This document shows, piece by piece, positions 3,003 to 32,407 of a stretch of 32,407 nt of DNA. Positions within the stretch are counted from its first letter, which is position 1, and each line of letters begins with the position of its first letter. Source of the DNA: Acaryochloris sp. IP29b_bin.137 (GTDB lineage: Bacteria; Cyanobacteriota; Cyanobacteriia; Thermosynechococcales; Thermosynechococcaceae); NCBI RefSeq assembly GCF_028285745.1, contig NZ_JANQOP010000066.1:1-32407 (forward strand), read 5' to 3'. Under the pieces are notes generated by a model, which worked only from the letters and a program-made list of their open reading frames with translations, was not told the origin of the DNA and searched no databases. The position numbers and the translations under genes are program-made.

Positions 3003-3192
3003 CTAGGCTCAATACTTAGCGCCCGCGATAGATTATGTGAGCAAATCTGCGATAAGACCCCACAACTTAGATTCTAAGGGAAAACCATGGATGGTGAGTT
3101 GACGCTTTACTTTAGCCAGAAAAGGCAAATTTATGGACGGATTCTTGAATCATTGCAACTGAAGAAAGACATATACTTTGAGAAATTTGCCT

Positions 3193-4047
3193 ATGTTAGT
3201 CATTCAAGAACTTTGTAAAACGTACAACAACGGGATTGAAGCACTTAAGAATATTTCCCTTGAAATACCTCATGGAATTTTTGGGCTGTTGGGTCCTAAT
3301 GGGGCTGGGAAATCCACCCTGATGCGGACCTTAGCTACTCTGCAGGATCCAGATAGCGGCACGGTTACTTTGGATGGAACGGATTTGCGACGGGATCTAC
3401 AGCAGTCCCGTCAGAATCTGGGCTATTTACCCCAGGATTTTGGAGTCTATCCTCAAGTCTCTGCAGTTGAACTCCTCGATCAACTGGCTGTTTTCAAAGG
3501 CTTTGTCAATCGAAAGCAACGACGGGCAGTTGTTGAAGAACAACTACAGCTCGTTAATCTCTTCGATCATCGACATCAGCAACTGGGAACATTCTCTGGG
3601 GGAATGCGACAGCGCTTTGGTATTGCCCAGGCATTGCTAGGAGCGCCGCGCTTAATCATTGTCGATGAACCAACGGCTGGTTTGGACCCAGCAGAGCGTA
3701 TCCGATTTCAGAATTTACTCGCTGAGATTAGCCAGGATCGGGTGCTGTTACTCTCAACTCATATTGTCGAGGATGTGGCTGAACTCTGCCCTCAGATGGC
3801 GATTCTTAAACAGGGTGCAATAGTGCAGAGCGGTAGTCCATTGGAGATGTTGGACAACTTGAAAGGACGGGTTTGGATGTGTCCAGGGGAAGACCTCTCT
3901 GAGATAGAGGAACAGTGGGCTTTAATTACGACTCGGATGGAACGCGGCGGTCGCTGCACAAGAGTGTTGAGTGAAACCCAGCCCAGTTCAAAATTTCAGT
4001 TAGTTGATCCTGATCTTAACGATGTGTATTTCACGGCATTGATGTAG
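3193..4047 (+). CDS. ABC transporter ATP-binding protein
   Basis: This is the cytoplasmic ATPase that would power the permease encoded just downstream. Numbered from the upstream TTG at 3178, it shows Walker A GPNGAGKS (39-46), the Q-loop in YLPQDFG (Gln86), signature FSGGMRQR (139-146), Walker B LIIVDEP (Glu164), D-loop AGLD and switch His195 in STHIVEDV. The C-terminal 70 residues are less conserved, as in the ABC-2 (CcmA/YhaQ-like) export subfamily. I prefer the ATG at 3193, which gives MLVIQELCKTY, the normal start of this family. The TTG adds five residues and neither site has a strong Shine-Dalgarno sequence. The next gene begins 39 bases after the stop, so the two form an operon. The substrate cannot be told from sequence. 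Confidence 0.93.
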   Translation: MLVIQELCKTYNNGIEALKNISLEIPHGIFGLLGPNGAGKSTLMRTLATLQDPDSGTVTLDGTDLRRDLQQSRQNLGYLPQDFGVYPQVSAVELLDQLAVFKGFVNRKQRRAVVEEQLQLVNLFDHRHQQLGTFSGGMRQRFGIAQALLGAPRLIIVDEPTAGLDPAERIRFQNLLAEISQDRVLLLSTHIVEDVAELCPQMAILKQGAIVQSGSPLEMLDNLKGRVWMCPGEDLSEIEEQWALITTRMERGGRCTRVLSETQPSSKFQLVDPDLNDVYFTALM

Positions 4048-8192: not shown

Positions 8193-11100
8193 ATGCAGAG
8201 AATTATGACGTTCAAAGGGATAATCCAAAACAAACTTGATGATTCAAACCATGATTTTTCTTTGGGATCGACTTTGGCGAACGTCTTGCGCCAAAGAGCC
8301 ATAGCTCAGCCCCACAAAGTTGCCTGTCAGTTCATACCCGATGAAGTTTCTGATGTAACCCGAGTAGATTGGCACCAGGGAAATAGCTGGACGTATTCTG
8401 ATATTGATCGCCGAGCTAGAGCAATTTCTAAGCAGTTACGAATTCGATTGTCAGATTGTGATAGACAGAATCAGCCTATTCTTCTGGCCTATTCTCCAGG
8501 TTTAGAATTTATTGCTGCTCTTTTTGGCTGCTGGTACGCAGGTAAAATCGCAGTCCCCGTTCAGCCAGCCCGTCGCCATCAGAGCGGGGAACGCTGGAAA
8601 CATATTCTTGAAGATGCCCAAGTAGTAGGTATCTTAACTTGTCAGCATTTGTTACCAGAAGTAAAACAGTTAATAGCCCATCATGATAGTGATACTCTCT
8701 TCTGTCTGGCTACTGATCAACTCAATAATCTAGAAATTAATGATTCAATACCTAATGAGTTTGAGCTTTGTAAGGCTGAGAAATTAGCGTTGTTGCAATA
8801 CACCTCAGGTTCTACCAGCAAACCGAAAGGTGTCATGGTTAGCCATTCCAACCTCATGAGTAATCAAGCATTGATTTATCAATGCTTTGGTCATGGGCCT
8901 GACAGCTATTTTGTTATTTGGTTACCTCCTCATCATGACATGGGGTTAATTGGTGGAATTTTACAGCCTATTTACGGTGGTTTCCCAGTGACCTTGATGT
9001 CACCACAGTCTTTTTTACGGAGACCAATACGCTGGCTACAGGCAATCTCTCATTTTCAGGCAACAACCAGCGGTGGACCTAATTTCGCCTATGACTATTG
9101 TCTTCAAAAAACCACGCCTTCACAGCGGGTAGGGTTGAATCTAAGCAGTTGGCAACTTGCCTTTAATGGGGCTGAACCTATTCAAGCTAGGACACTTGAA
9201 AACTTCTCATCCACCTTTGCAAGTTGTGGGTTTAAGTCCCAAGCATTTTACCCCTGCTATGGCCTAGCAGAAGCTACTCTATTCGTCTCGGGTAACCATT
9301 GGGATGCCCGGAAAAATACGATTCGTAGCCTCAAGCGGAGTTCGCTTGGTTTAGGGAATGTTGTTGAGACGACTCCCAATTCTGACGATGCAGCACTCGT
9401 TATTGGCTGCGGTGAATTAGATGTAGGAACGAGTCTAGCCATTGTTGACCTGAAAAATGGTCATACCTGTACGTCGAACAAAATAGGTGAGATATGGGTT
9501 GCAGGCGACAGCATAACCCAAGGGTATTGGCAAAATTTTCAAGCGACACAAGAAAGCTTTCATGCTTACTTACCTGATGGAAGTGGGCCTTATCTGCGCA
9601 CTGGAGATTTGGGCTTTTATGATGGTCAATCACTTTATATCACCGGGCGGCTTAAAGATTTAATCGTTATCCGTGGACGCAACCACCTACCCCACGACAT
9701 CGAATATACTGTAGCTCAATGTCATGAAGATCTGAGATCACAAGGGGCTGCATTTAGTGTCGATCTGGATGGATCTGAAAGCCTTGTCATTTTTCAAGAA
9801 GTCAAGCGAGCGGCCTTACGTCATCTGCAGGCAGAGGTTGTTTTCAATGCCATACGTGCTGCTGTTTCACACCATCATGGGCTACAAGTTGCAGTCATAT
9901 GGCTACTGAAGCCGGGGCACCTACCGCAGACTACAAGCGGGAAAGTACAAAGACATATATGCAAAACTGCCTTTATCGAAAAAAAGCTCGCACCTGTCGC
10001 CCATTGGTCCATTAATGAAGGGCAAAAGATCAAGCGAAGTAAGGGAAAAGAATCTACCGCCTTTGCTTCCAGCAAAGATAACTTAAATTCTTTACCGTCG
10101 GACAGAACTAACAAGCTTGCTGGCCGCATTTCTTGGCTTCGCCAATATGCGAACGAGTCGATTAATTCCCGATTAATGGATGAGCGTCGATGTATTTCAC
10201 CCAGCATAGTTCTGGATTTTGGCAACCAAGGCTTGTTGGGGATGCAGGTGCCTCAACAGTATGGTGGCCTGGAATTCGGCCATCATGACCTATTGCAAGT
10301 CTTGGAACAACTTGGGGCCATTGATCCTACTTTAGCCCTATTTGTTGGTCTTAATAATGTACTGGGTATTCGCCCTATCTTGGACTATGCTCAGCCAGAG
10401 ATGCGCGAGCAACTTCTACCGGGGCTAGCTGCTGGGCGAGAATTAGCAGCATTTGCTCTGACTGAACCAGCGGCTGGTTCTAACCCATTCGGTATTACGT
10501 CTAAAGCCATGCCGACGTCACAGGGTTGGACATTGCAAGGAGAAAAAATTTGGAGTGGTTCCGCAGCGTGGGCAAGCGTTACCAATGTATTTGTCAAGCA
10601 ATGTGATGCAACTGGTAACCCCATAGGTGTCAGCGGATTCATCGTCAAAAAAGGTTCGCCTGGACTACGTCAAGGGCCTGAGGCATTGACCATGGGGATG
10701 AGAGCCATGGTGCAAAATACGGTGTTTCTAGACCAAGTGCCTGCCTCTACATCTCAGCTTTTGGGCGAATCTGGCATGGGCATGATTGTGGCACAAGAAG
10801 CCATGATGTATGGGCGCCTAGCTATTGCTGCTGCCAGTGTTGGTGGAATGAAGCGCTGTGCCCAAATGATGCTGCGCTATAGTTCTCGTCGCTCTATTTC
10901 TACGGGAAAATTGTTGGATAACCCAATAATATTGACTCGATTGAATTGGTTAACTCATGCGATCACCACTCTTAACAGCCTAGTTACCTTTGTTGGTCAA
11001 CGTTTGGATCAGGCATTGTTTGTCCCTGAAGAGTTCTATGCTGCCTGCAAGGTCCTAGGCCCAGAATTTTATTGGCAGGCTGCTGACAACTTAGTGCAAT

Positions 11101-12131
11101 GTCTAGGAGGACGAGGCTATATCGAAACTAACGTAGCACCCCAAATCCTCAGAGATGCCAGAGTTTTGAGAATTTTTGAAGGGCCAACTGAATCCCTAGC
11201 AATGTATTTAGGGGCTAGGGTGACCCATCAGCCAGCAGCATTGCGAGAGTTTTTATCAGAGTTGAATTTGACCTCACTGGCAGATTCACTCTTTGAGTCT
11301 GCCAGTGAGATTTTGGCCTACTATCTAAGTTCACAGTCACCTTTCTCAGATGAGATACCTGCTCGGCAGCAGGCAAATTTTGTGATTGGGGAAACGGCTG
11401 CGTGGGCATTAGCTATCGCAACATTAAAGGCTACCTCAGCTAGGCCTGCAGCGACTGAGTGGGCACAGCATCACTTTAAGCAGGCTGTTGCTCAGGTTCA
11501 GGTGTCTCACCCCAATAAAGGGGTAACGGCGACAATGTTGGCTGAACAAATTAGCAACTATCAAAACAGTATCGGAGAGATCGAACAAACCTTGGCAGGT
11601 AATGACGAAATGCTAGATAAGGTGTTGAAATTAACGCCTCCATCTCATTCTTCTCCCGTGGAGGGACAGACCAAGCACCTGCACGCTCATGAAAAGAAAG
11701 TCCCCCCCTCTCTGTTTCGCCCACTTTCCCTGAAGCAGAAATTCAAAATTGAGCAGTGGCTGCAGCAGTGGCTTACGCAGCGATTGCGCTTAGAACAAGA
11801 TCAAATTGAACTCAATAAAGCGCTAGCAGACTATGGTGTTGATTCAGTCATGGCGGTTGAATTGGCCCAAGATTTGGAAGATTTTCTTGCCTTGTCGCAG
11901 CCGCTAGATGTGACTCTAGCCTGGAGCTTCCCAACCATTGAAGCGCTCTCTCAGCATCTTGCTGATCTGACCAATGGTGCTCAACCACCAATGTCTAATC
12001 AACCGATGTCTAATCCAGAGATCGCAAACCGTTTTTCTGGTCTAGATGAAACGGAGCTCAGTGACGATTTATCCGAGGCCCAACTGGCGGAAATGCTGGC
12101 AGCGGAACTGGCAGCAGTGCGAGGGAGATAG
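8193..12131 (+). CDS. Loading protein: fatty acyl-AMP ligase - acyl-CoA dehydrogenase-like - ACP fusion
   Basis: This 1312-residue starter enzyme has three parts. Residues about 20-595 are a fatty acyl-AMP ligase (FAAL): YTSGSTSKPKGV (203-214), PPHHDMGLIGG, YGLAEAT (356-362), RTGDLGF (469-475), GRLKDLIVIRGRN and the terminal Lys584 in TTSGKVQR. The spacing and HHDMGLIGG favour FAAL over CoA ligase, so it should form acyl-adenylate from a free fatty acid and pass the acyl to ACP. Residues about 640-1130 are an acyl-CoA dehydrogenase-type flavoprotein: ALTEPAAGSN (755-764) and LGGRGYIETN; Glu996 in RIFEGPTE is at the usual catalytic-base position. It likely makes a 2,3-unsaturated acyl-ACP. Residues about 1180-1260 are an ACP with Ser1218 in YGVDSVMAVEL. 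The C-terminal tail (DDLSEAQLAEMLAAEL) is probably a docking helix. An ATG at 8205 with an AGAG site six bases upstream is an alternative start. The next gene begins two bases after the stop. Confidence 0.93.
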   Translation: MQRIMTFKGIIQNKLDDSNHDFSLGSTLANVLRQRAIAQPHKVACQFIPDEVSDVTRVDWHQGNSWTYSDIDRRARAISKQLRIRLSDCDRQNQPILLAYSPGLEFIAALFGCWYAGKIAVPVQPARRHQSGERWKHILEDAQVVGILTCQHLLPEVKQLIAHHDSDTLFCLATDQLNNLEINDSIPNEFELCKAEKLALLQYTSGSTSKPKGVMVSHSNLMSNQALIYQCFGHGPDSYFVIWLPPHHDMGLIGGILQPIYGGFPVTLMSPQSFLRRPIRWLQAISHFQATTSGGPNFAYDYCLQKTTPSQRVGLNLSSWQLAFNGAEPIQARTLENFSSTFASCGFKSQAFYPCYGLAEATLFVSGNHWDARKNTIRSLKRSSLGLGNVVETTPNSDDAALVIGCGELDVGTSLAIVDLKNGHTCTSNKIGEIWVAGDSITQGYWQNFQATQESFHAYLPDGSGPYLRTGDLGFYDGQSLYITGRLKDLIVIRGRNHLPHDIEYTVAQCHEDLRSQGAAFSVDLDGSESLVIFQEVKRAALRHLQAEVVFNAIRAAVSHHHGLQVAVIWLLKPGHLPQTTSGKVQRHICKTAFIEKKLAPVAHWSINEGQKIKRSKGKESTAFASSKDNLNSLPSDRTNKLAGRISWLRQYANESINSRLMDERRCISPSIVLDFGNQGLLGMQVPQQYGGLEFGHHDLLQVLEQLGAIDPTLALFVGLNNVLGIRPILDYAQPEMREQLLPGLAAGRELAAFALTEPAAGSNPFGITSKAMPTSQGWTLQGEKIWSGSAAWASVTNVFVKQCDATGNPIGVSGFIVKKGSPGLRQGPEALTMGMRAMVQNTVFLDQVPASTSQLLGESGMGMIVAQEAMMYGRLAIAAASVGGMKRCAQMMLRYSSRRSISTGKLLDNPIILTRLNWLTHAITTLNSLVTFVGQRLDQALFVPEEFYAACKVLGPEFYWQAADNLVQCLGGRGYIETNVAPQILRDARVLRIFEGPTESLAMYLGARVTHQPAALREFLSELNLTSLADSLFESASEILAYYLSSQSPFSDEIPARQQANFVIGETAAWALAIATLKATSARPAATEWAQHHFKQAVAQVQVSHPNKGVTATMLAEQISNYQNSIGEIEQTLAGNDEMLDKVLKLTPPSHSSPVEGQTKHLHAHEKKVPPSLFRPLSLKQKFKIEQWLQQWLTQRLRLEQDQIELNKALADYGVDSVMAVELAQDLEDFLALSQPLDVTLAWSFPTIEALSQHLADLTNGAQPPMSNQPMSNPEIANRFSGLDETELSDDLSEAQLAEMLAAELAAVRGR

Positions 12132-12133
12132 CC

Positions 12134-15100
12134 ATGATCCAATCTCGCTCGTCTAAATCAATACCTTCGTCTGAAAATCAGTCTAAGAACTACCGTAGTT
12201 TATTGCGAGAAGCAACGATTCAGATTCGCAAGTTGCGTACTCAGCTAGACAATATTGAAAAACGCCAAGCAGAGCCCATCGCAATTGTTGGCATGGCTTG
12301 TCGCTTCCCTGGTGAGGCAAATACTCCTGAAGCTTACTGGGACTTGCTGCGAAATGGGGTAGACACCGTTGGCAAAGTGCCGACTCAACGTTGGGACATC
12401 GACGCCTATTATGACCCTGATCCTGCTGCACCTGGGAAAATGTACACTCGTTCAGGTAGCTTTATTAACCATGTAGATCAGTTTGATCCACAATTTTTTG
12501 GGATTTCACCTCGAGAAGCACACAGTTTAGATCCGCAACAGCGGTTATTACTGGAAGTTAGCCACAACGCTTTAGAGAATGCTGGCATTCCCGCTTTTGA
12601 CCAAAAAGGAAGTGCCACAGGGGTGTTTGTTGGCCTCTGTTTTGATGATTATGCTCAGCGCAGCGTGCGCTCTAGCAATCCAGCCCTGATCGATGCATTT
12701 AGTAGTCTGGGGAATACCCGAAGTGTTGCTGCTGGACGGATTGCCTATGTATTTGGATTTCAGGGGCCAACGATGCAGCTGGACACCACCTGCTCGTCAT
12801 CATTGTTGGCGATTCATTTAGCCTGCCAGAGTTTACGTAATGGGGAATGTAATCTCGCTTTGGCAGGTGGCGTCAACCTAATGCTTTCACCGGAAGCCGC
12901 TATTGGTTTTTGTAAGCTTCAGGCTCTGGCACCAGATGGACGATGTAAAACCTTTGATGCGGCGGCTGATGGCTATGGTCGTGGTGAAGGGTGTGGTGTG
13001 GTTGTGCTGAAACGGATGTCGGATGCCGTTCATGACCGAGACAATATTCTAGCCCTAATCAAGGGTTCAGCGGTGAATCATGATGGCTCTAGCAACGGCT
13101 TAACCGCCCCTAATGGTGCTGCTCAGACAGCGGTCATCCGCCAAGCATTATCCAATGCCCGACTAGATCCAGAACAAATTCAATACGTGGAAGCTCACGG
13201 GACCGGGACTTCCCTGGGAGATCCTATTGAGCTCATTGCGTTAGATCAAGCCCTGGACGGTCGCTCAGATCCCCTTTTGGTAGGTTCAGTCAAAACAAAC
13301 TTTGGTCACCTGGAGGCAGCTGCCGGTGTAGCTGGGTTGATGAAAGTGATTCTTGCATTGCAGCATCAACAAATTCCTCCCCATTTGCACCTCAATACTC
13401 CCAATTCTTTCATCCCCTGGGAACGTCTCGCTATTCAAGTGCCGACCCAATTGACTCCCTGGCCAGAAACTTCAGAACCCAAACGGGCAGGTCTGAGCAG
13501 TTTTGGGATGAGTGGCACCAACGTGCATCTTATTCTTGAGGAAGCAGTATCTGCTGAAGCGGCCCCCCTGGAAAACCCCTTTTGTGCAAATCCTGAACGC
13601 TCCCTTCATCTTTTGACGTTATCTGCCCGAAGTGAATCAGCCCTGAAATCATTGGCCCTGCAGTATCAAGCCTGGTTGATGGAATCTAAGAGCGATTCAG
13701 CTGACATTTGCGTTACGTCGAATACAGGGCGCTCTCACTTTACCCATCGATTGGCTGTGAGTGCAGCTAACATCCCCCAACTCGGTCAACAATTAAATCA
13801 TGCGATTGAGCAGCGATTCTCCCATAATCTTTTGCAACCGGTCTCATCCCACCATCCAAAGATTGGTTTTCTCTTTACTGGACAAGGCTCACAATATGTG
13901 AGGATGGGGCAAGAACTCTTTGAGACTGAGCCTGTTTTCCAAGATGCCATTCATCGGTGTGCTGAAATTCTAGAGAAAGACAACATCCCGTTGTTGAAGC
14001 TTCTTTACCCAGCTTTAGAATCGTCGACGCTTCCCTCAAAGTACTCAATTCATGACACCACTATTACTCAACCTGCTCTTTTTGCCCTTGAATATGCCCT
14101 CGCTAAACTTTGGCAGTTCTGGGGCATTGAGCCTGACTATGTTTTAGGTCATAGCATTGGTGAATATGCAGCGGCCTGCATTGCGGGTGTATTTAGCCTT
14201 GAAGATGGACTCAGACTCATCGCTGCACGCGGGCGGTTGATGCAGTCTTTGCCAGAAGGGGGGGGAATGGTGGCGGTGATGGCTGCCTCGGACCCGGTGG
14301 CTGAACTGTTATCGGATGGGGTTGAGATCGCAGCAGTGAATGGCCCTCAGAATACGGTCATTTCGGGAGAACTATCAGCTTTAAATCGTGTGGTTACGCA
14401 GCTTGAGTCTCGAAACTACAAAATCAAATGGCTTAAGGTTTCCCATGGGTTTCACTCTGCCCTCATGGAGCCAATCCTGGCAGAGTTTCAACAGATTGCC
14501 CAAGCGATACAGTATCGTCAGCCCAATATTGACTTTATCTCTAGTGTGACTGGGCAGTCTATGGCGACTGAAATAGGTGAACCCAGCTATTGGGTCAATC
14601 AAATTCGTCAACCTGTGCAGTTTTCATTAGCCATGGATACCCTTGCGAATGAAAACTGCAAAATCTTTATTGAGATTGGTCCCCGCCCCACCTTAGTTTC
14701 CATGGGACAGCTGTGCATACCGGCAGAGGATAGTCAATGGTTACCTAGCCTATCGCCTGCAAAAGTGCAAAACGATGTCCGTTCTGAAAAAACAGATTGG
14801 CAAACGCTGACATCAACATTGAGCCGACTGTATGAGGCAGGCTGTTCAATCAATTGGGCTAACTTTAACAGAAACTGTTCCCGAAAAACCGTACTCTTGC
14901 CCAGTTACCCCTTTCAGCGGAAACGCTATTGGTTGGAGACAGCAAGCGAGTCCTCTCCTCCTAACCTGACATCAACCATCCAATATCCTCTATTAGGGCA
15001 ACAACTCTCCCTCGCAGGAGATACGGTACGATGTTATACCTCATTTTTACAATGGGATAACCCGTTAATTTGGCAGGATCACCGAGTTTTTCAGTCTGTA

Positions 15101-18100
15101 TTAATGCCTGCTGCAGCTTATCTAGAAATGGTTTTAGCCGCAGGCCGAGAGATATACCAAGACGCCAGTTATGAAGTGACCAACGTATCCTTGCTAAAGG
15201 GACTATGGCTCAGTGAAAGCAACTCCATTCACCTACAGACATTAGTAAACCGTCAGGAACTCGATCAGTACTCCTTTGAGATTCACAGCCGCCATGAAAA
15301 TGATTGGGTTCAACATAGTACAGGCAATATACAGTCATCTTCTGCTCAAACAAATCTACCTGGACTCAACTTTAAAGCTATTCAACACAGGCTGACGAAT
15401 ACTCTCTCAAGTGAGCAATTCTATGAGAGATGTGTGGCTCGTGGGATTGAGTATGGCCCATCGTTTCGGGCTGTTCAACAGGTTTGGCTGGGAGATGGAG
15501 AGGCGTTAGCTCAGGTCGCCCTTACTCCATCCTCGACGGTCCTTCAATTCCAAATGCATCCGGTGCTATTGGATGCTGGCCTGCAGTTGGCAGGAGCCAC
15601 GCTAGAAGAAAGTTTAACTCCCTATTTACCGGTAGCTGTTGAACGGTTTTATTGTTGCCAAGCACCGGAAGCGGCCTGGATATATGCTCAAAAACGTCAC
15701 CAAGCGGTCGCCCAGCCGGTTATTGATGTAACTTGGGTAGACGCTCAGCATCAGACTGTAGCTGTTCTCCAGGGACTAACCTTGCAGGCGGTTGAATCTC
15801 CCAATCATCCGACTCAATGGTTTCATCAAGTAGTCTGGGAAAATCAGCCTTTACCCCTAGCACCAGGGGCGTTCTTGGTTTCACCCCAAGCGGTGAGCGA
15901 TGCGATCGCATCCCAATTCACCCAACTTGTTCAACAGCCTGATTTTCTCACCTACCAAGACTTACAGACTGAATTAAACACCTTGACCTTGGCCTATATT
16001 ATCCAGGCCTTCTCTCAGTTAGGTTGGACTCCTCAGTCAAATAGACACTACACAAGCAAGGAATTAGCCCATATCCTTGGCATTGTTTCTCGGCATCAAA
16101 AACTGTTTAATCATTGCCTAATTTTGTTGCAAAAAGCTCATGTTTTGACCACAGTTAATGGGCTCTGGCAAGTTCCTAATGAATTACCACACATAAATTT
16201 AAGAGATCTAGAAGAACGACTTCAAGAAAAGCAGTTATTAAGTACGGAACTTTCCCTATTGCAACGTTGTGGGACAAAACTGGCTTCCGTTTTTCAAGGT
16301 CAAGTAAATCCTTTAGATCTATTGTTTCCTCAAGGAAATTTAACTGATCTCGCACAACTCTATCAGAGTTCTGTGGGTGCTCAGGCAATGAATCAATTGT
16401 TGCGAAGAGCAATTGCCACAGCTATCGCTCATGTACCTCTAGACCGCCCTCTTCGTGTTCTCGAGATTGGCGCAGGTACAGGTGGCACTACATCTCAGAT
16501 ACTGCCACTACTGGCTGACTTAAGCCACCCCGTCACCTATATCTTCACTGATATTTCCTCTCGGTTTACACGTGCTGCCCGCGACCAATTCCAGAAGTTT
16601 TTATTTACGGAATATAAGCTACTAGATATCGAACAATCGCCTGTGGCACAAGGATATAAACCTGATTTTGACCTTGTAATTGCTGCCAATGTTCTCCACG
16701 CAACGGCGGATATTCAACAGACCCTAAACCATGTTCGGGAGCTATTAGCTCCAGGTGGTCAATTGTTTTTGCTCGAAGGAACTCAGCCCATGGCTTGGGT
16801 TGATTTGATCTTTGGTTTGACTTCTGGCTGGTGGCGATTCAACGATCATGATCTACGACAGGATCACCCTCTGCTTTCAGTTTCACAATGGCACTCAGTA
16901 CTAAAGGAAGTTGGGTTTAACGAGGTTGTTGCATTAAAAACTGACGACACTTCTCAGGAGTTTGCTCAGACTGTCATTATCGCTCAGTCTGAAACAGCTA
17001 CATTAAATCACTGGTATCTCTTGGGAAACCTATCATCCATTCGCCCATTAGCATCTCGATTAGAGACCCAACATCAGATTACCAGGACTTTCGATGCTGC
17101 CCTTCTCGATATGGCCGAGTTTTTACCTGAGCTTGAGACTATAAATAGCTTTGTTTATATTTTGCCATCAGTCATTGAAGACCACGTGGTAGAGGTGACG
17201 GAGAATATCTGTCGACAAATGTTGTCATTGGTACAAGCATTGACACACCATTCTGAGCCTCCCAGGCTCTATGTTGTCAGTGTGGAAAACACAAGAGCTT
17301 CTTGTCTTTCCAAGTCATCTCTATGGGGATTTGTTCAAACTTTACAGATGGAGCACCCAGAATTACATTGCACCCATCTGCAAGTGGACAATTTGGACAA
17401 CCTCGTTGCAGAACTATTATCGGCCTCGCCTGAAACTCAGGTTAAATTCACAACAGGTGTCAGGCAGGTTGCACGCTTAGAATCTTTCACCGAAGATTTA
17501 TCCAGAAATCCATTCCAAAACTCACCCATTCATTTAGTTACGACTCAAACAGGTACACTGAACGGATTGCAATGGAAGAATACCCAAGTCCGACAGCCCC
17601 AAGCCAATGAAGTAACTATTCGCGTTCAGGCTACGGGGCTTAACTTTAAGGATGTGCTAATCGCAATGGGGCAATATCCTGAGGCTGCTCCTCTGGGGTC
17701 TGAGTGTGTGGGTGTGGTGATAGAGGTTGGAGCTGACGTCAGCGATCTGCAGCCGGGACAGTTGGTAATGGCCATTGCCTATGGTAGCTTTTCACGGTTT
17801 GTTAACGTCCATCGCAATTTAGTGACTCCTGTTCCTCCTAATGTCACCATTACCGAAGCTGCTACGCTACCTGTAGTCTTTTCGGCAACTTACTACGGCC
17901 TTTTTTATCTAGCTAAGCTGCAGCCAGGGGAACGGCTCCTCCTCCACGGAGCAACAGGCGGTATCGGTCAAGCCGCAATTCAAATTGCTCAACAGGTGGG
18001 GGCAGAGATTTTTGCCACTGCCAGTCCTGATAAGTGGGATGCACTCAAAGCTCTGGGAGTAAGCCACATTATGGAGTCAAGAAGCCTGGGCTTTGCAGAC

Positions 18101-22700: not shown

Positions 22701-25700
22701 AGTCCTACCTGCGGTGGGCTACCTAGAAATGGTTTTAGCTGCTGCAGATAGCGCAGATGCGGGTCTCACTGCGATCACTTTCCAGAATGCGCTATTGCTC
22801 GATCAACCCAAAACAGTTCAACTGATTCTTTCGCCCGGAACTAAACATCAAAGATTTGAAATATTCAGCCTGTCTGCTAAGAAAGAGTGGGTTCTACATG
22901 CCAGTGGTCACTTAATACCCGCTCCTCATCAGGCACATCAGGAAGAACCATTTACCTTAATGGAAATGCAGGCTGTCTGCTCAGAGGAGAAATCTGTTAC
23001 CCACTGCTACGAGTGGTTATCGATGCGAAGGATAACCTACGGTGAGAACTTCCGTGCCCTGAAGCAGATTTGGATAGGCGATAATCAAGCGTTGAGTCGC
23101 CTCCAACTGCCACCAGCTCTATCGTCTACGCTGGCAGACTATCAACTACACCCGGTTCTCCTAGATGCTTGCCTACAAAGTATTGCTGCCATATTCATTG
23201 ACTTAACTCAAACTGATACTTATTTACCCGCAGCAGTGGAATTGGTTTCCATTACAGGGCAAATAGCTTCTGAACTATGGAGTCATATTCAGGTCAAGAG
23301 ACGAGAGAACTATCTTCTTGCAGATATTCATTTGTGGACGATCACTGGTGACTATCTCGGCATTATTAAGGGGCTCCAGCTTCAGCCTGCCAGTGTTGAG
23401 CGCATACTTGGCTCTAATGCGACCCTAGAAGACTCACTGGAAAACTGGTTTTACAAACTTGATTGGAAGGTTGAACCACTGACTCAGTTGGCGTCATCCA
23501 CTACAATCATCCAGAAAATTTATCCATATTATTCTGCAGCTCTGACTGAACCTGCGATTCAGAGATACCAAAACTTATTGCCCAAATTAGAAAATCTGAG
23601 TTTGGGGTATATGGTGACGGCGCTAAACATTCTCAACGGTGTCGAAACCCTTCCTACAGAATTTGATGTTGCTGAATTAATAGATCAGGGGAATGTTGAC
23701 CCTCGGCAAAAACGATTATTCCAGCACCTACTGGAATTAGTTGTCAACCATCCACCTTATGAGGGTGGACAGCAACAGGTTATCTCACAATCGGAAACAT
23801 TACTTAGCCAGCATCCAGAAGCTAAAGCTGAACTGACTTTAATCCAGCGATGCGGAGAACATTTGGCAGGTGTTCTGCAGGGCAGTATTGATCCACTAAC
23901 GCTCCTTTTCCCAGCAGGTGATCTGTCAGACCTGACACATCTTTATCAGTCCTCACCGGGGGCTCAACTGATGAATGATTTGGTGCGGCAAGCGGTGATG
24001 GCTGCTATCGCCCCTCTATCTCGTCTCCCTCGCATTCTGGAGATCGGTGGCGGCACAGGCGGCACGACAGCCCATCTCTTGCCACATTTGGGCCAGGCTG
24101 AGTACGTTTTCACAGATATTTCTCCGCTGTTTTTGGCTAAGGCCAAGAAGCGCTTTGCTGACTATGACACCGTTCTATATCAAACGCTAGATATTGAGCA
24201 GTCTCCTGAGAGCCAAGGCTTTGAAGCCCACGCCTATGATCTGGTCATTGCCTCAAATGTACTTCATGCCACAGAAGATTTGGAGCGGACATTAGGGCAT
24301 GTGCGATCTCTTCTAACATCAGATGGTCAGTTGGTGCTCCTAGAGGGTACGCAGCCCTTAGCTTGGCTAGATCTGATCTTTGGCATGACTGAAGGCTGGT
24401 GGAAACGGCCTGAATATCCACTCCTGTCGGTTTCGCGATGGCAATCTCAGCTTCAAGCGGCTGGATTTGAGGATATCGTTGCTTTAACTCCTGATCAGGA
24501 GGCAGAAAGTATTCTAGCGCAGTCTGTCATCATCGCCACATCACCTCTGGTTAAGACAACGGCTCCACTACTGCTAGCGGCTCCCTCCAGTGAACTTGGC
24601 AAAACCCTATCAGACACGATTGATGCTCGTTTAATTGGCTTAGAGACTGATCTAACTCCACGGACTCCTATCCCAGAAACCATTGATCCACTTAGTTTTG
24701 AGGCATTTGAGACTCTGCTGGCAACGTTTGGAGATCAACAGCTAGAACAAATTATTTACTTAGTTGGTAGCCCGGAGCCAGAGGAGCCTATAGAAACTTA
24801 CACCCAACACATCCTTATGGGGCTTCTCCATCTGGTACAAACACTGACCCAAACATCAGAAGCAATGCCCAAGCTCACCCTTGTCACCCAGGGAAGTGTG
24901 GATGGATTAGGGCATCCAGCCGTAGCATCGGCCTGGGGTCTTGGTCGCGTGATCGAGCTGGAATATCCCAGCCTACATTGTTGCCGGATTGATCTTGATC
25001 CGACAATGGCTATAGCGCAACAGGTGGAGATCATTTACCGCGAGTTACAGCTAGAGCAGGAGGCGGGTGCAATCTCCTATCAGCAAAGTCAACGACGTGT
25101 TGCACGGCTAGGCCCAGCTAAACCAATTACCCCTCAAATTCCCGCAGAGCCGTTTCAGCTTACCCTCTCAAGTAAAGGAACGCCTGATAACCTCCAGATT
25201 GTTACCTCTGTTCGACAGCAACCTGGTCCTGGTGAAGTCGAAATTCAGGTTAAGGCTGCTGGCCTTAACTTCATTGATGTGCTGGATGCGCTGGGGCTAC
25301 TGCCCTTTGATCGCGATTTGCTCGGCGTCGAATGCACAGGCCAGATTGTCAGGATTGGTGAAGGAGTTGATGCGTTTCAGGTTGGCGATCCAGTGATAGC
25401 GCTGGCTCCTGGCAGCTTTCGGCAGTACATCACGGTGCCAATAGTGCTGATAGGACATCAACCCCAGACTTTAAGCACTATGGAGGCAGCGACGATTCCG
25501 ACAAACTTTTTGACCGCTGACTATGCGTTGCGTCAGGTAGCTCAACTCCAGCCAGGTGAACGAATTCTCATCCATGCCGCCGCTGGAGGGACCGGAATGG
25601 CGGCTGTAAAAATTGCCCAGCAAATCGGCGCAGAGGTATACACCACTGCCAGTCCAGGAAAATGGGAGGCATTACGAATCCAAGGGGTTACCCAGATCAT

Positions 25701-27357
25701 GAACTCTCGCACTCTGGATTTTGCTGATGAAATTATTGTCAAAACTAACGGCCAGGGCGTCAACGTGGTCCTTAGCTCGCTATCAGGTGAATTTATCCCT
25801 AAGGGACTATCAGTGCTGGCTCCACAGGGACGGTTTCTGGAAATCGGCAAGCGCGATATCTGGACAGCAGAGCAGGTTGCTGAGGTCAGACCAGATGTAG
25901 CCTATCACCTAATTGATTTGATGACGGTTGCTCACACTCAACCAGATCAGATTCAAGTGATGCTGCAGAGTCTTCAACAGCAATTTGAAGAGAAAGCGTT
26001 GACCCCGGTTCCCTATCAAGTTTTCCCGATAACTGAGGCAAGCCAAGCATTCCGTTGCATGCAGCAGGCGCAACACATTGGTAAGATAGTGCTTGATTTT
26101 GAGCCTGATCCACCCATATCCATTCAGGCCGATGCAACTTATTTGCTCACAGGGGGGCTAGGCGGGCTAGGGCTCTCAACCGCTGAATGGCTGGTGGAAC
26201 AAGGGGCACGTCATCTAGCTCTGGTGAGTCGTCGTACAGAACTTTCTGCGGATGTCACCACTGCAGTTGAACGGCTCCGACAGCAGGGGACTTCGGTGGC
26301 CCTACTCCAGGCAGATGTGGCCAATCGAGCGCAGCTAGATAGAGCCTTGGCACAGGTTCGCGATACTCTACCGCCATTGCGCGGTGTGATTCATGCTGCT
26401 GGAATCCTAGAAGATGGGGTATTGCAGCAGCTTACTTGGGAACAGATGCAAACTGTACTCGCACCTAAAATTTGGGGCGCGTGGAATCTCCATGAGCTGA
26501 CAAAAAAGCAATCCCTCGATTTGTTTGTCCTATATTCATCGGCAGCCGCATTGCTGGGTTCTCCGGGTCAGGGCAGCCATGTGGCAGCCAACAGCTTCTT
26601 AGATGCGCTGGCTCACCATCGGCGACAGTTAGGGTTACCAGCATTGAGCATTAATTGGGGACCTTGGTCTGAGGTAGGTTCGGCTGCTACAAGAGTTATT
26701 CACAAGCAGATGCAGGCGAAAGGGGTAGGAGCGATTACATCTTATCAAGGTAAGCAAGCTCTCTCTCAATTGTTTTACAAAAACACTTTATCCCAGGTAG
26801 GTGTCATCCCAATTCACTGGTCTCGGTTCCGTATGAGTGTCAATCGTGATTCGTTCTTTACTAACTTTAACCAGCCAGAATTTAGTCAGTTCCCATCTGG
26901 TCAGACTCCTGCTCAAAAGTCACAGGCCGACTGGCGATTTATACTCCAGACACTACCTCATCGACAACGTACTGGATTTATAGCTCAGGAGCTCCAGATT
27001 GAAGTTGCCAAGATATTGGGGTTGCCTAGTTCTCAAAATCTTGACCCCGTGACCAGCTTTTTTGATATGGGCATGGATTCCTTGATGGCTGTTGAGTTGA
27101 AGAACCAGTTGGATCTTCATCTTGGCACTCCTGTTGCATCTACTGATATCTTTGAATTCCCGAATATACGTGCTTTAGCGACTCATTTGGTTGAGACCCT
27201 AGATGTGCCTACCTCTCCAATTGATTCTGACAAAGCTGCAGCGCAATTCCTAGCAGTCGAGCAGTCACCTTTGACTGAGCCGAGCCTTGCAGCTGATGCT
27301 GCTTCAGATATTGAACAAGAGTTAGACGCCATTGAGACCCTATTAGGTCGGTCATAA
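19792..27357 (+). CDS. Type I PKS, second fully reducing C-methylating module: KS-AT-DH-CMT-ER-KR-ACP
   Basis: This 2521-residue paralogue of the preceding PKS has the same domain order. After an N-terminal helix (15-40), KS (41-470) has Cys212, His347 and His387. AT has Ser668 in GHSIGEY and the malonyl-type SHGFHS (763-768). DH has an intact [10 protein letters not shown] (His964) and Asp1125. The methyltransferase has [11 protein letters not shown] (1416-1426) and the His1492/Glu1518 pair. ER (about 1790-2100) has AAAGGTG, with Leu1837 where the preceding module has Tyr. KR (about 2115-2310) has [10 protein letters not shown], Ser2250 and His2263 in place of the catalytic Tyr. ACP Ser is 2430 in [10 protein letters not shown], and the tail [13 protein letters not shown] is a likely docking helix. 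It should add a second two-carbon unit with an alpha-methyl group and full reduction. GAGGGAGA lies just before the ATG, which overlaps the upstream stop by four bases. The next gene starts 22 bases after its stop. Confidence 0.96.
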
Positions 27358-27379
27358 GTTGTTATAGAGTTTCTTTCCT

Positions 27380-30300
27380 ATGAGTGACACCCTAAACATT
27401 ACCAACACTACTTCTGAACGGGTCTTTCGAGCCCTAAAAGAAGCACGATCCAAGCTCGAAGCCATTGAAGAGGCTAGAAAGGAGCAAATTGCCATTATTG
27501 GTATGGCCGGCAAGTTTCCCGGTGCAGATAACTTAGATGAGTTTTGGGAATTACTGGTCCAGGGTAGATCTGGCATTCGCATGCTTTCAGAGACGGAATT
27601 ATTAGAAGCTGGAGTCCCCGAATCGACCTTTACCCAACCTAATTATGTTCCAGCCTACGCTAGCTTTACTGATCCGACGCAGTTTGATGCCCATTTCTTT
27701 GGTTACTCCCCCCGAGAAGCAGAGCTGATTGATCCTCAACACCGTGTGTTTCTGGAATGTGCCTGGGCAGCTCTAGAGAATGCGGGGTACGACAGTCACC
27801 AATATGACGGCACCATTGGTGTATATGGTGGGGCTGCCCTCAATAGCTATCTAGTTAATCTGTATGCGAATGCCACCGTTAGAGATTCAGTAGACCCAGT
27901 ACAGGCGGTGATCAGTAATGTTATGGGACTTATGCCCACTCGGGTTTCCTATCAGCTTGATCTGAAGGGACCAAGTTGTGGCATTCAAACAGGATGCTCT
28001 ACCGCTCTGGTGGCAGTGCATACAGCCTGTCAAAGTCTTTTGCACCATGAATGCGATATGGCTCTAGCAGGGGGAGTGACCGTTAGTAGTGCGATCCCTC
28101 AGGGGTATTTATATCAACCCGATGGCATTGCTGCACCTGATGGTGTATGCCGTGCCTTTGATGCTATGGGACAAGGGACCTTATTTGGTAATGGGGTCGG
28201 GTTGGTCGTTCTGAAGCGGCTCCAGGCAGCTGTGAGAGATGGTGACCATATCTATGCTGTGATCAAAGGCTCCGCGATTAATAACGATGGGGCTGATAAA
28301 GTGGGTCTCACTGCGCCCAGCATTTCTGGCCAAGCTGCTGTGATTCAAGCTGCTTTTGATCAAGCTGGCATTGACCCTAGCACTCTCAGCTATATCGAGG
28401 GGCATGGAACAGGGACCCCTCTTGGGGACCCTATCGAGATAGCAGCCTTAAACAAGGTATTTAACCGGGCTTCCTCAAGGCCTTGCGCTTTGGGTTCAGT
28501 CAAAACGAATGTGGGGCATTTGGATGCGGCAGCTGGAGTAGCTGGGTTGATTAAAACGGTACTGGCTATGCAGAACCGGGTTCTGCCGCCCAGCCTCAAT
28601 TTTAAGGCGCCAAACCCTCGCATTGCTTTCGAGCAGGGTCCATTTGTTGTTAACGATCGCTGTACAGACTGGGTCAGTACCGAGGTGCCAAGGAGGGCTG
28701 GGGTTAGTTCCTTTGGCATGGGAGGAACCAACGCTCATGTCATTTTAGAAGAAGCACCCGTACCAAAGTCCACTAACAAAGCTCGGCCTTGGCAAATGCT
28801 GACGTTATCGGCAAAAACGCCAACTGCCTTAATGCAGATGCGCCAGCAATTGGCAACTCACTTAAAAGATCATCCGGAACAGGACTTAGCAGATATTGCT
28901 TACACACTCCAGATTGGTCGTCGTTCTTGGCCCCATCGCCAGATTTGCTTGTGTCAGACGACTACAGAAGCCATCGAGTTACTCAATCAGGCTGACTCTC
29001 CCCTTTGCCTGAGTCAAACGGCCCATTCAGAAACCCACAGCATCGTGTTTATGTTCTCTGGGCAGGGAGCACAGCACGTTAATATGGGCCGCGATCTGTA
29101 CGAGACTGAGCCTGTTTTCCGCCAAGCCATGGCCCAGTGTGCCGATCTACTTGGCTCCGACTTCCCCCTTTTAGAGATACTCTATGGGGTTAAGAGAGAC
29201 CGACCCGAGACTCAATCTAGCTACCCTTTGACCCATACAGCTAACGCTCAACCGACCTTATTTGCGGTTGAGTATGCGCTAGCTAAATTGTGGCTGTCCT
29301 GGGGGATTCAGCCTAAGGCGCTCATTGGCCACAGCATTGGTGAATATGTGGCAGCTTGTATTGCTGGGGTGTTTTCGTTGGCAGATGCCCTGGCTTTGGT
29401 GACCCAACGGGGCCGAATCATGCAGTCCTGTTCTCCAGGGGCAATGCTGTCGATTCTGCAGCCCGCAAGTTCCGTGAGAACATACCTGCCCGTGGGAGCG
29501 GAAATTGCAGTGATCAATAGCCCCCAAACCTGTGTGGTGTCTGGACCCATAAGGGTGATTGAAGCATTGCGATCGCAGTTGGAATCCCAATCTATTCCCT
29601 GTCGTCGCCTCGAAACCTCTCATGCTTTTCACTCTGCCTCGATGGATTCGGCCCTAGGCGAGTTTGGGCAGGTCCTGCAAAAAGTAGCACTCCATCCCCC
29701 TCAAATTGAGATTATCTCTAACGTGACGGGGACTTGGCTAACGGATACTGAGGCGACGAGTCCTGATTACTGGCTACGTCATTTGCGACATACCGTCCAC
29801 TTTAGCCAAGGCATTACTGAACTTCTTCATCTCGACCATCCGATCTTTCTAGAGATTGGCCCAGGACATACCCTTACCAAATTGGTGCAACAGCATTTGG
29901 CACCCGAACAACGCCATATCCCTGCCCTGCAATCATTGCCCCATCCACGGGAGAATCAAGCTGACCTCGTCACCATGATGATGACCCTAGGTAAACTGTG
30001 GTTGACGGGCATAACCGATTTTTGGCAGGACTTTCACGCATCGACCCAGCGGCAGCGATTACCCCTGCCCACCTATCCTTTTGAACACCAGTCCTACTGG
30101 ATTCCCCTAGAGCAAGATGCACCTGCACAAGTCACTCCAGAGGATGAATCTTCTAAAAAACCAGACCTCTCGGATTGGTTCTATCTCCCCACTTGGAAGC
30201 GATTGCCTCTTATTGAGCCTCCCTCAAATCGTCTGGATAGCTGCTGGCTAATTTTTACGGATGGGGTCCGACGAGAAAGTCTTTGGTCGTCCCTAGAGGA

Positions 30301-32002
30301 CCAAATCAACAACCTCACTTGGGTAACCCCAGGAGACGAATTTTTATCTCAAAATAATGTCTATACATTGAATCCTCATCAGGCAAACGATTATCAGTTA
30401 CTCTTACAAGCCTTACAAGGTGAATCCATTACTCAAGTTGTATATGACTGGGGGGGAATACAGGCTCTAGCTCATCTCGATCCCCTCGAATCATTACTTC
30501 ACCTTATCCAATCCTTGTCAGGTCAGAAAACGACGCTGAGCTTGATCACCACTAACGTTCAGAATGTCACAGGGACAGAGTCGATCAATCCTCTGATGGC
30601 TAAAATTCTGGGTTTTGGCCAGGTAATTTCCCAAGAATATCCACAGCTACGTAGCCGTTTTATCGATATTGATGATTCCTGCTCACCCCCTATGGTGACA
30701 AAACTGGGTCAGGAATTGCGGCAGGAATACAATCCGGAACAGCGGATACTAGCCTACCGAGAGGGGCATCGTTGGGTCCAAACCTATGACACCCTGCCTT
30801 TGCCACCTCACCAATCTTCATTACTCAAGCCTGGGGGAACCTATCTCATTGCGGGAGATATAGTTGAAGGTCTGGGAACAGTGTATGCCAAGGCTCTAGT
30901 TCAAGATCTTGACGCCAAACTCATTTTGGTGGGTCGTCCAGGCTTGCCTGCAGCCAGCGATTGGGAAAAATGGCTATTGACCCACGGCCCCCAACATAGC
31001 GTCAGTCGATTGATTCGGCAGTTGCAAGCTTTGGGAACCGAAGGTGAAACATTTCTGTGGTTTAGTGGGGATCTCACCGATCTTGACTGGACGCAAGCAA
31101 CGCTTCACCACGGGCTTGAACGCTTTGGTCCTATTGTCGGCGTTTTCCATACCGATGTAATGGGAGATCAGGCCAGTTGCGCAATGGCGGAATTGGATGC
31201 AGCGGCCTGCGATCGCATCTGTCGCACCAAAGTAGAGGGGATTCAAGTTCTTCAACAAGCCCTTTCCCCTTCTCCGGTAGACTTTTATCTGCTCCAGTCG
31301 TCCTTGTCTAGCATTGTGGGTGGCATTGGTTTCGGTGCCTATGCGGCTGCAAACGGTTACCTCGATGCGTTCGCTCAGCAGCAACACAATCAAACCACCC
31401 AATGGCTAAGTCTGAATTGGGATGCTTGTGAGCTAGACAAACCGGCCACGCAGACCCAATCAACTTTAATGAGTTCAGCGATGTCCGCAGATGAAGTCTG
31501 GGAAGTTACACAGCGAGCGTTATCTCAATCAAGTTGTCCTCAACTAATTATTTCACCTCGCAGCCTTCAAGCCAGACTTGATAAAGCCTTTGTTGCTGCT
31601 CCTGAAAAGGTAGATAACTTCGTTTCCGACGTCGGTTCCGCTTCCCATACCCGTCCTCCATTGTCAACGCCTTATGTAGCCCCTACGAATGAGGTTGAAC
31701 AAACCGTAGCCCTGGCCATGGGAGAGCTATTAGGCATTGAAGCGGTTGGGATTAACGATAACTTTTTTGAGCTAGGAGGGCATTCTCTGCTCGCAATACA
31801 GGCTGTCACTCGCTTACGACAAGAGTTTCAAGTTGATCTGCCCATGCGTGCCTTTCTCTTTGAAGCCCCAACGGTTGCAGGCATTGCCAAAATCATTACT
31901 GAAAATCAGATTATTTTATCTGATGACACTCAATCAACACTGGAGGACTTACTAGGTCAAATTGAGAATATGCCCCTTGAAGAAGTGGAAAAGAAATTAT
32001 AA
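27380..32002 (+). CDS. Type I PKS, third module: KS-AT-KR(atypical)-carrier
   Basis: This is a 1540-residue single module. After a helical N-terminus (12-35), KS (36-460) has Cys206 in QTGCSTALVAVH, His342 and His380. This KS type is the one I know from mixed PKS/NRPS systems, unlike the two preceding KSs. AT (about 555-870) has Ser652 in GHSIGEY and SHAFHS (747-752), malonyl-type. There is no DH, methyltransferase or ER. A KR with its structural half spans about 930-1400. Its catalytic set looks present (Lys1284, Ser1308, Tyr1321 and Asn1325 in GAYAAANGY), but the cofactor motif expected as TGGLGGIG reads AGDIVEGLG and the LDD region reads MGDQ, so activity is doubtful. The carrier (about 1435-1505) has Ser1469 in FFELGGHSLLA, a peptidyl-carrier-like signature. 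The tail (LEDLLGQIENMPLEEVEKKL) is a likely docking helix. There is no thioesterase. It should deliver a beta-keto or beta-hydroxy acyl chain to the next protein. Confidence 0.95.
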   Translation: MSDTLNITNTTSERVFRALKEARSKLEAIEEARKEQIAIIGMAGKFPGADNLDEFWELLVQGRSGIRMLSETELLEAGVPESTFTQPNYVPAYASFTDPTQFDAHFFGYSPREAELIDPQHRVFLECAWAALENAGYDSHQYDGTIGVYGGAALNSYLVNLYANATVRDSVDPVQAVISNVMGLMPTRVSYQLDLKGPSCGIQTGCSTALVAVHTACQSLLHHECDMALAGGVTVSSAIPQGYLYQPDGIAAPDGVCRAFDAMGQGTLFGNGVGLVVLKRLQAAVRDGDHIYAVIKGSAINNDGADKVGLTAPSISGQAAVIQAAFDQAGIDPSTLSYIEGHGTGTPLGDPIEIAALNKVFNRASSRPCALGSVKTNVGHLDAAAGVAGLIKTVLAMQNRVLPPSLNFKAPNPRIAFEQGPFVVNDRCTDWVSTEVPRRAGVSSFGMGGTNAHVILEEAPVPKSTNKARPWQMLTLSAKTPTALMQMRQQLATHLKDHPEQDLADIAYTLQIGRRSWPHRQICLCQTTTEAIELLNQADSPLCLSQTAHSETHSIVFMFSGQGAQHVNMGRDLYETEPVFRQAMAQCADLLGSDFPLLEILYGVKRDRPETQSSYPLTHTANAQPTLFAVEYALAKLWLSWGIQPKALIGHSIGEYVAACIAGVFSLADALALVTQRGRIMQSCSPGAMLSILQPASSVRTYLPVGAEIAVINSPQTCVVSGPIRVIEALRSQLESQSIPCRRLETSHAFHSASMDSALGEFGQVLQKVALHPPQIEIISNVTGTWLTDTEATSPDYWLRHLRHTVHFSQGITELLHLDHPIFLEIGPGHTLTKLVQQHLAPEQRHIPALQSLPHPRENQADLVTMMMTLGKLWLTGITDFWQDFHASTQRQRLPLPTYPFEHQSYWIPLEQDAPAQVTPEDESSKKPDLSDWFYLPTWKRLPLIEPPSNRLDSCWLIFTDGVRRESLWSSLEDQINNLTWVTPGDEFLSQNNVYTLNPHQANDYQLLLQALQGESITQVVYDWGGIQALAHLDPLESLLHLIQSLSGQKTTLSLITTNVQNVTGTESINPLMAKILGFGQVISQEYPQLRSRFIDIDDSCSPPMVTKLGQELRQEYNPEQRILAYREGHRWVQTYDTLPLPPHQSSLLKPGGTYLIAGDIVEGLGTVYAKALVQDLDAKLILVGRPGLPAASDWEKWLLTHGPQHSVSRLIRQLQALGTEGETFLWFSGDLTDLDWTQATLHHGLERFGPIVGVFHTDVMGDQASCAMAELDAAACDRICRTKVEGIQVLQQALSPSPVDFYLLQSSLSSIVGGIGFGAYAAANGYLDAFAQQQHNQTTQWLSLNWDACELDKPATQTQSTLMSSAMSADEVWEVTQRALSQSSCPQLIISPRSLQARLDKAFVAAPEKVDNFVSDVGSASHTRPPLSTPYVAPTNEVEQTVALAMGELLGIEAVGINDNFFELGGHSLLAIQAVTRLRQEFQVDLPMRAFLFEAPTVAGIAKIITENQIILSDDTQSTLEDLLGQIENMPLEEVEKKL

Positions 32003-32081
32003 TTTTCCGTGCATACCAAAAACAATTTATCAAATCAAAAACTTGAAATCATCAAAATATCTTATTAAAGAATTAAAAACC

Positions 32082-32407
32082 ATGAAATTTAGTTTGTTCT
32101 ATTTTGACGGGGATGGGTTAACCTCACAAGATGACCCGTATAAACTATTAATTGAAAGCTCTAAATTTGCCGATCAAAATGGTTTTAGTGCCGTTTGGAC
32201 CCCTGAAAGACATTTTCATGCCTTTGGTGGACTCTATCCTAATCCAGCAATGACTAGTGCAGCACTTGCAATGGTCACTGAAAAGATTCAACTGCGGGCC
32301 GGCAGTGTCGTGCTACCCCTACATCATCCAGTCCGGGTGGCTGAGGATTGGGCCGTAGTCGATCAACTGTCTGGAGGACGGGTGGCGATCGCCTTTGCTT
32401 CGGGCTG
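32082..32407 (+). CDS. Luciferase-like flavin monooxygenase of natural-product type, N-terminal part (cut by right edge)
   Basis: The ATG at 32082 opens 108 codons with no stop before the right edge. The start MKFSLFYFDGDG and the segments VWTPERHFHAFGGLYPNP, QLRAGSVVLPLHHPVRVAED and LSGGRVAIAFASG match the FMN-dependent luciferase-like monooxygenases found in PKS and NRPS clusters (MupA-like family). In known cases the domain is either alone or at the head of an NRPS condensation-adenylation-carrier module; which applies here lies beyond the window. It starts 79 bases after the third PKS gene, with no terminator between, so it belongs to the same operon. The ribosome site is weak (AAAG about 11 bases upstream), and the frame stays open upstream, so an earlier TTG start (32043) is possible. 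The substrate is presumably carrier-bound. Confidence 0.9.
   Translation, partial: MKFSLFYFDGDGLTSQDDPYKLLIESSKFADQNGFSAVWTPERHFHAFGGLYPNPAMTSAALAMVTEKIQLRAGSVVLPLHHPVRVAEDWAVVDQLSGGRVAIAFASG

Follow-up and report, generated by a model that had tools for sequence, protein, structure and literature searches.

The gene cluster that begins in this stretch of DNA very probably encodes the synthetase of an amphiphilic siderophore of the Dmaq/fabrubactin superfamily. The stretch analysed, hereafter the window, is the entire contig C71 (32407 b) of Acaryochloris sp. IP29b_bin.137, a fragmentary genome of 5.5 Mb (88% complete, 373 contigs), and it is the 5' third of an assembly line of ~72 kb. Our results are at the level of sequence (domain order, contig joining, active-site motifs, adenylation (A) domain codes and orthology), and from them we infer the siderophore role in Acaryochloris and every chemical step given below. 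A preliminary description of this DNA recognised no product and by implication treated the operon as unique. Our results do not support this, as an orthologous siderophore cluster is present in Anabaena PCC 7120 and in Nodularia CCY9414, and the fabrubactin family is a relative; among the orthologues, we found none whose product has been characterised and shown to have another structure. The orthologous clusters were thus already known. New, so far as the literature we found goes, are the lipid and peptide halves as one colinear line, a residue-level prediction for a structurally unsolved siderophore, and a CmlA domain fused to the releasing reductase.

The operon had been described as a FAAL-ACAD-ACP protein, two KS-AT-DH-CMT-ER-KR-ACP modules, a KS-AT-KR-carrier module and a flavin monooxygenase, all on one strand. 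Both the open reading frames and Pfam bear this out (Table 1), with domain E-values of 1e-9 to 1e-100 across the five ORFs, well past chance. The gaps, given there as ranging from a 4-base overlap to 79 bases, are exact: between the FAAL gene and the luciferase-like monooxygenase (LLM) gene they are 2 b, a 4-b overlap, 22 b and 79 b, the LLM gene starting at the ATG at 32082 and not at the TTG at 31962. Active-site residues are present in the KS domains (Cys/His/His), the AT domains (GHSIGE with HGFH or HAFH) and both DH domains (His/Asp). The SAM motif and NVLHAT, as in CurJ, are found in both CMT domains, the nucleotide loops in both ER domains and the carrier serines in all DSL/HSL motifs; motif reading also finds the ACAD Glu in RIFEGPTE. 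Against the PDB, CMT1 matched CurJ (5thy, 4e-89), aligned over its length with the motifs kept.

Table 1. Features of the window, with the evidence on which each assignment rests
Feature	Position	Strand	Evidence and remarks
ABC transporter ATPase (GldA/DrrA-like)	3178..4047	+	Pfam ABC_tran; NCBIfam drrA/GldA-like below cut-off; 92% identical, same place in G004
ABC-2 type membrane protein, 1202 aa	4087..7695	+	Pfam ABC2_membrane_4; 92% identical, syntenic in G004
Loading protein FAAL-ACAD-ACP	8193..12131	+	Pfam AMP-binding, AMP-dom_DIP2-like, Acyl-CoA_dh_N/M/1, PP-binding; 84% identical in G004
PKS1 KS-AT-DH-CMT-ER-KR-ACP, malonyl-type AT, C-methylating, reducing	12134..19795	+	Pfam and active-site motifs
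PKS2 KS-AT-DH-CMT-ER-KR-ACP, malonyl-type AT, C-methylating, reducing	19792..27357	+	Pfam and active-site motifs
PKS3 KS-AT-(degenerate KR)-ACP	27380..32002	+	Pfam, motif reading; 43% to fbn-type PKS next to Agrobacterium LLM
LLM, 5' part; FMN-dependent luciferase-like monooxygenase, FbnE-like	32082..32407	+	Pfam Bac_luciferase; TIGR04020; 3' remainder on contig C364
95-base exact overlap with end of contig C364	32313..32407	.	Unique match in own genome; links to NRPS part

By window gene, the nearest relative is Acaryochloris sp. IP29b_bin.176 (G004), of the same genus. Upstream of the operon, the ABC-2 membrane protein is unusually long, and its pairing with the ATPase is kept beside the cluster in G004; the two could possibly export the product, their membership of the cluster being uncertain. 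Positions 1-1662 (- strand) encode a large surface-type protein with DUF4347 and cadherin-like domains, truncated by the contig end. The search of the window for tRNAs and Rfam families gave none. Protein identity to G004 is uneven: at 16.2-27.4 kb, from about residue 1350 of PKS1 to the end of PKS2, it drops from 77-95% to 41-76%, with the PKS2 KS at 73-86%, and is back to 88-96% in PKS3, all domains being kept. A diverged homologue seems to have replaced an 11-kb segment, unless the assembly is chimeric here.

The KR domains are unusual in two respects. In KR1 (~18.5-19.1 kb) and KR2 (~26.1-26.7 kb), a His occupies the place of the catalytic Tyr of most KRs, and the same His is found in every readable orthologous reducing module, both in the cyanobacterial genomes compared and in PKS2 of Methyloversatilis. 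Since it is so widely kept, KR1 and KR2 are probably functional; a literature search on the Tyr-to-His variant turned up no paper. In KR3 (~30.8-31.4 kb), the nucleotide loop TGGxGxLG is replaced by AGDIVEGLG. This odd loop is well conserved across genera, as AGD-VEGLG in PKS3 and as GD--QGLG or GDLTTGLG in PKS4 of the relatives, and it resembles the loop VIGELLEGLG of the Agrobacterium fbn-type PKS, so that it has the look of a conserved variant and not of a decayed domain. For the chain on the third carrier, the preliminary description proposed a 4,6-dimethyl acyl group with a C8-C9 double bond, either 3-oxo or 3-hydroxy. Domain order agrees with the methyl groups and the double bond, and the 3-oxo form is probably the likelier, because the KR3 loop is degenerate and is shared with the Agrobacterium fbn-type PKS. 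The final lipid is another matter. Since the LLM should act on carbons 1 to 3, oxidising the beta-keto unit and rearranging it, this lipid has probably lost the plain 3-oxo-4,6-dimethyl pattern, and the compound to seek in extracts is a rearranged acid rather than a plain 3-oxo or 3-hydroxy lipid.

The LLM belongs to TIGR04020 (MupA/Atu3671), with a score of 501 bits where the cut-off is 244. It is 62% identical to the Agrobacterium LLM, and the adjoining PKS is 43% identical with the same odd KR loop; an FbnE-type monooxygenase lies here beside a PKS predicted to form a beta-keto unit. The chemistry of FbnE reportedly involves a Favorskii-like rearrangement, according to the fabrubactin paper. 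This flavin monooxygenase has been proposed to form the two alpha-hydroxycarboxylates of fabrubactin (PMC12971057). In the Acaryochloris cluster, the odd loop occurs in just two PKS modules (PKS3 and PKS4), and there is one LLM, a count that fits two predicted alpha-hydroxycarboxylate ligands; the LLM probably converts the 3-oxo chain of PKS3 to the first of these iron-binding groups.

The complete cluster is found, colinear, on a single 83.9-kb contig of G004. Its first half runs FAAL-ACAD-ACP; PKS1; PKS2; PKS3; LLM; C-A-PCP-E; C-A-PCP-C-A-PCP-E; C-A-PCP; KS-AT-(KR)-ACP. The second half of the peptide part follows as C-A-PCP-Cy-A(Ox)-PCP; C-A-PCP-C-A-PCP-E; C-A-PCP; C-A-PCP, and the cluster ends with CmlA-TubC-reductase, a methyltransferase, a class III aminotransferase, MbtH, two small ORFs and a fatty acid hydroxylase. 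Adenylation domains were aligned to the GrsA reference stretch, and we take the residues to be those that standard code tables give. On this basis, the ten amino-acid modules of G004 read D-Asn, Gly, D-Val, Gly, [PKS4], Ala, Cys, Gly, D-Ala, Ser and Tyr/DOPA, the last code, DAPTLGAVNK, being read as an aromatic residue. The D configuration of Asn, Val and Ala is the one marked by E domains in the predicted line, and the cyclisation and nitroreductase-type oxidase domains should turn Cys into a thiazole. Leptolyngbya sp. SIOISBB has the same gene order throughout, with its NRPS genes broken by frameshifts, while Oscillatoria sp. CS-180 and the two copies in a Halomicronema MAG keep the order to the limits of their contigs. 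The two Halomicronema copies are separate clusters, perhaps from two strains in the bin. Two further occurrences were observed. The betaproteobacterium Methyloversatilis thermotolerans has a shortened version with FAAL-ACAD-ACP, both C-methylating PKSs, CmlA-reductase and aminotransferase. In Gloeocapsa PCC 7428 the cluster is on plasmid pGLO7428.01, adjoined by a tyrosinase-family gene, a TonB receptor and a sucrase-ferredoxin.

The link to iron comes from the cyanobacterial orthologues. The same pathway, with matching A-domain codes, is present in Nodularia spumigena CCY9414 and in a genome closely related to that of Anabaena PCC 7120 (G079); across these two and G004, the ten codes come in the same order and are equal or one residue apart, except for Val, with two. 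In Nodularia, the FAAL/PKS1/PKS2 block is at the position expected for nsp26710-26730 and the NRPS block lies where nsp26910-27060 should, in the numbering of the genome paper, which treated the former as a separate, iterative PKS cluster and called the latter cryptic, noting that Anabaena PCC 7120 has one much like it (PMC3610870). A survey of the phylum gave the Nodularia cluster as an orthologue of the siderophore clusters of Nostoc PCC 7120 and Agrobacterium C58 (PMC4247773). The PCC 7120 cluster was linked to most siderophore production in 2008; its deletion removes most of the siderophore, and the structure of the product was still unsolved in a 2019 review (PMC6562677). Both alr2679/alr2680 and all2649-all2641 are FurA targets in PCC 7120 (PMC4788461, PMC4005646). 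The published all2649 FurA box recurs upstream of the first, orthologous NRPS gene, matching at 18/19 positions in G079 and at 17/19 in Nodularia, so that the sequence itself links these clusters to the experimental work. Between the two cluster halves, Nodularia also carries genes for a TonB receptor, an MFS protein, HlyD/FtsX, an iron permease-like protein and a Suc_Fer protein.

The surroundings of the Acaryochloris operon do not repeat this picture. Upstream of the FAAL gene, no Fur box was found: the generic 19-bp box matched at 13/19 positions in the window (shuffle p ~0.21) and 11/19 in G004, and the all2649 FurA box at 11-12/19 at best. In the window, the gap between PKS3 and LLM has a 14/19 match (p ~0.01, one among many tests), with only 13/19 in G004, and we do not claim it as a site. 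No TonB receptor was seen on the Acaryochloris cluster contig; receptors occur elsewhere in both Acaryochloris genomes. Regulation in Acaryochloris may differ from that in Anabaena and Nodularia, with the orthology of the enzymes still standing. A lipopeptide of the same architecture might instead serve mainly in the handling of copper or another metal, or in membrane activity, rather than in iron supply; the lack of both box and receptor beside the operon would suit such a role, and marine Leptolyngbya-type metallophores, for example fatuamide A, can prefer copper. We regard this as improbable, however, as the orthologous Anabaena 7120 cluster is Fur-regulated and its deletion costs the siderophore, and the Nodularia locus contains iron-uptake genes.

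The other end of the cluster bears on the nature of the product. The terminal Tyr/DOPA module, with reductase, aminotransferase, N-methyltransferase and MbtH, is present on contig C179 of the window's own genome, together with a pair of small genes that overlap by 4 b and encode proteins of 173 aa and 190 aa. These are orthologous to pairs in Agrobacterium and Allorhizobium (1e-14 to 1e-68), and the 190-aa, FbnM-like protein matches the tyrosine peroxygenase SfmD (1e-5). FbnL and FbnM act together as a heme peroxidase, and their oxidation of Tyr to DOPA is the first step of Dmaq synthesis (PMC12971057). On the Agrobacterium plasmids, an orthologous LLM lies between PKS and NRPS and beside a FAAL, and is followed by two small proteins annotated as 'siderophore biosynthesis protein', MbtH, aminotransferase, methyltransferase and terminal NRPS. 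Identities to the A. tumefaciens plasmid cluster, which stands for the fbn type in this comparison, are 55% for the aminotransferase, 41% for the methyltransferase, 61% for MbtH, 46% for the terminal NRPS and 44% for the reductase; with the Allorhizobium plasmid included, they range over 47-51% for the FbnM-like and 27-36% for the FbnL-like protein. The terminus also includes a diiron hydroxylase, a CmlA-type domain with an intact HxHxDH motif, and its fusion to the releasing reductase suggests a Dmaq group that is additionally hydroxylated.

The aminotransferase could be read in a second way. In a beta-amino lipopeptide like puwainaphycin, the LLM would alpha-hydroxylate, and the class III aminotransferase aminate, the PKS3 product, which would become a 3-amino-2-hydroxy-4,6-dimethyl fatty acid (one methyl in the case of PuwE). 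The LLM of PuwE (6ket) is indeed the closest to ours in the PDB, and KR3 appears inactive. We nevertheless think this very unlikely and reject such an acid as the PKS3 product, as the aminotransferase belongs to the Dmaq cassette: it is grouped with the reductase, methyltransferase, MbtH and FbnL/FbnM-like genes, and its Agrobacterium orthologue sits in a cluster of the same make-up. In Methyloversatilis, it adjoins the CmlA-reductase gene, and we saw no LLM in the 80 kb that we read. Moreover, PuwE has aminotransferase and LLM in one protein, whereas the Acaryochloris aminotransferase stands alone, ~46 kb from the LLM. Other candidates were the beta-OH-Asp cyanochelin, leptochelin and fatuamide; they were set aside for differing starters or the lack of matching domains.

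In the window's own genome, the line is spread over several contigs. The 95 bases at the 3' end of the window recur once elsewhere, at the end of contig C364, and joining the two gives an intact LLM frame of 354 aa, 336/354 identical to G004, followed by NRPS C-A-PCP-E with an Asn code. The preliminary description had expected a lipid-primed PKS-NRPS hybrid with an amino acid next and NRPS or release genes to the right; the overlap and the G004 contig support this, the right flank holding both NRPS and release genes. Contig C179 carries the pathway end and matches the last part of the G004 cluster at 88%. The middle NRPS genes, equivalent to 36.5-64.9 kb of G004, were not found in this 88% complete assembly, so that only the Asn, Ser and Tyr/DOPA modules are assembled here. 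That the window operon and the NRPS contigs are separate pathways joined by accident is scarcely credible, for all the 373 fragments of the assembly and the replaced segment in PKS1/PKS2, given an exact and unique overlap, a frame intact across it, and the identical order on the G004 contig and in the Leptolyngbya, Oscillatoria and Halomicronema records.

For the siderophore pathway, the following course can be proposed. The FAAL would adenylate a fatty acid and load it on the ACP, where the ACAD would put in a 2,3-double bond to give a 2-enoyl starter. PKS1 and PKS2 would each add one malonate unit (two carbons), with alpha-methylation from SAM and full reduction, and PKS3 a third unit left as the 3-oxo form by its non-standard KR nucleotide loop. 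The FbnE-like LLM would then oxidise the beta-keto unit, a Favorskii-like rearrangement yielding an alpha-hydroxycarboxylate iron ligand, before NRPS modules append D-Asn-Gly-D-Val-Gly. PKS4, with its degenerate KR, would supply a second beta-keto unit to the LLM, and so a second ligand, after which Ala, thiazole (Cys with Cy and Ox), Gly, D-Ala, Ser and Tyr/DOPA would follow. The FbnL/FbnM-like pair would convert Tyr to DOPA, and the CmlA-type domain may hydroxylate the beta carbon of DOPA. Release as an aldehyde by the reductase, followed by the action of the aminotransferase and N-methyltransferase and by ring closure of the catechol, would give Dmaq as the third ligand. Two alpha-hydroxycarboxylates and Dmaq would make three bidentate iron ligands. 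More tentatively, with the chances slightly against it, the cyanobacterial branch may make an undescribed chelator with a dimethyl-branched unsaturated lipid, two LLM-made alpha-hydroxycarboxylates, a thiazole and a benzylic-hydroxylated Dmaq; in Anabaena PCC 7120, this chelator would account for the second siderophore, still unsolved. The residue-by-residue prediction can be tested by LC-MS in culturable strains.

Among known systems, the likeness to curacin is confined to the motifs that CMT1 shares with the CurJ C-methyltransferase, curacin being the product of a different pathway. A salicylate-starter Dmaq system shares the Dmaq end group and the reductase, methyltransferase and aminotransferase genes, but has neither FAAL nor lipid part. 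The puwainaphycin (puw) cluster is alike in FAAL, C-methylating reducing PKS and an LLM of the same family, and unlike in the PuwE fusion, thioesterase cyclisation and single methyl. The Agrobacterium fabrubactin (fbn) family shares the PKS3-LLM-NRPS core, a second PKS of the same kind, the FbnL/FbnM-like pair, MbtH, aminotransferase, methyltransferase and terminal NRPS-reductase; the Agrobacterium stretch read, however, is without ACAD, the C-methylating reducing PKS pair and the CmlA domain, and has fewer amino-acid modules. With the present cluster, chemistry of the fabrubactin type would reach a cyanobacterial branch that is lipid-primed and C-methylating. Within that branch, Anabaena PCC 7120 (all2649-all2641 and alr2679/alr2680) and Nodularia CCY9414 have the same domain set and A-domain codes, as read in CCY9414 and the 7120-like genome, but their genes form two loci with iron-uptake genes between them, PKS3 having been shifted to the end, whereas those of Acaryochloris and Leptolyngbya are contiguous and colinear. 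The colinear Acaryochloris version indicates that the two Anabaena and Nodularia halves are one assembly line.
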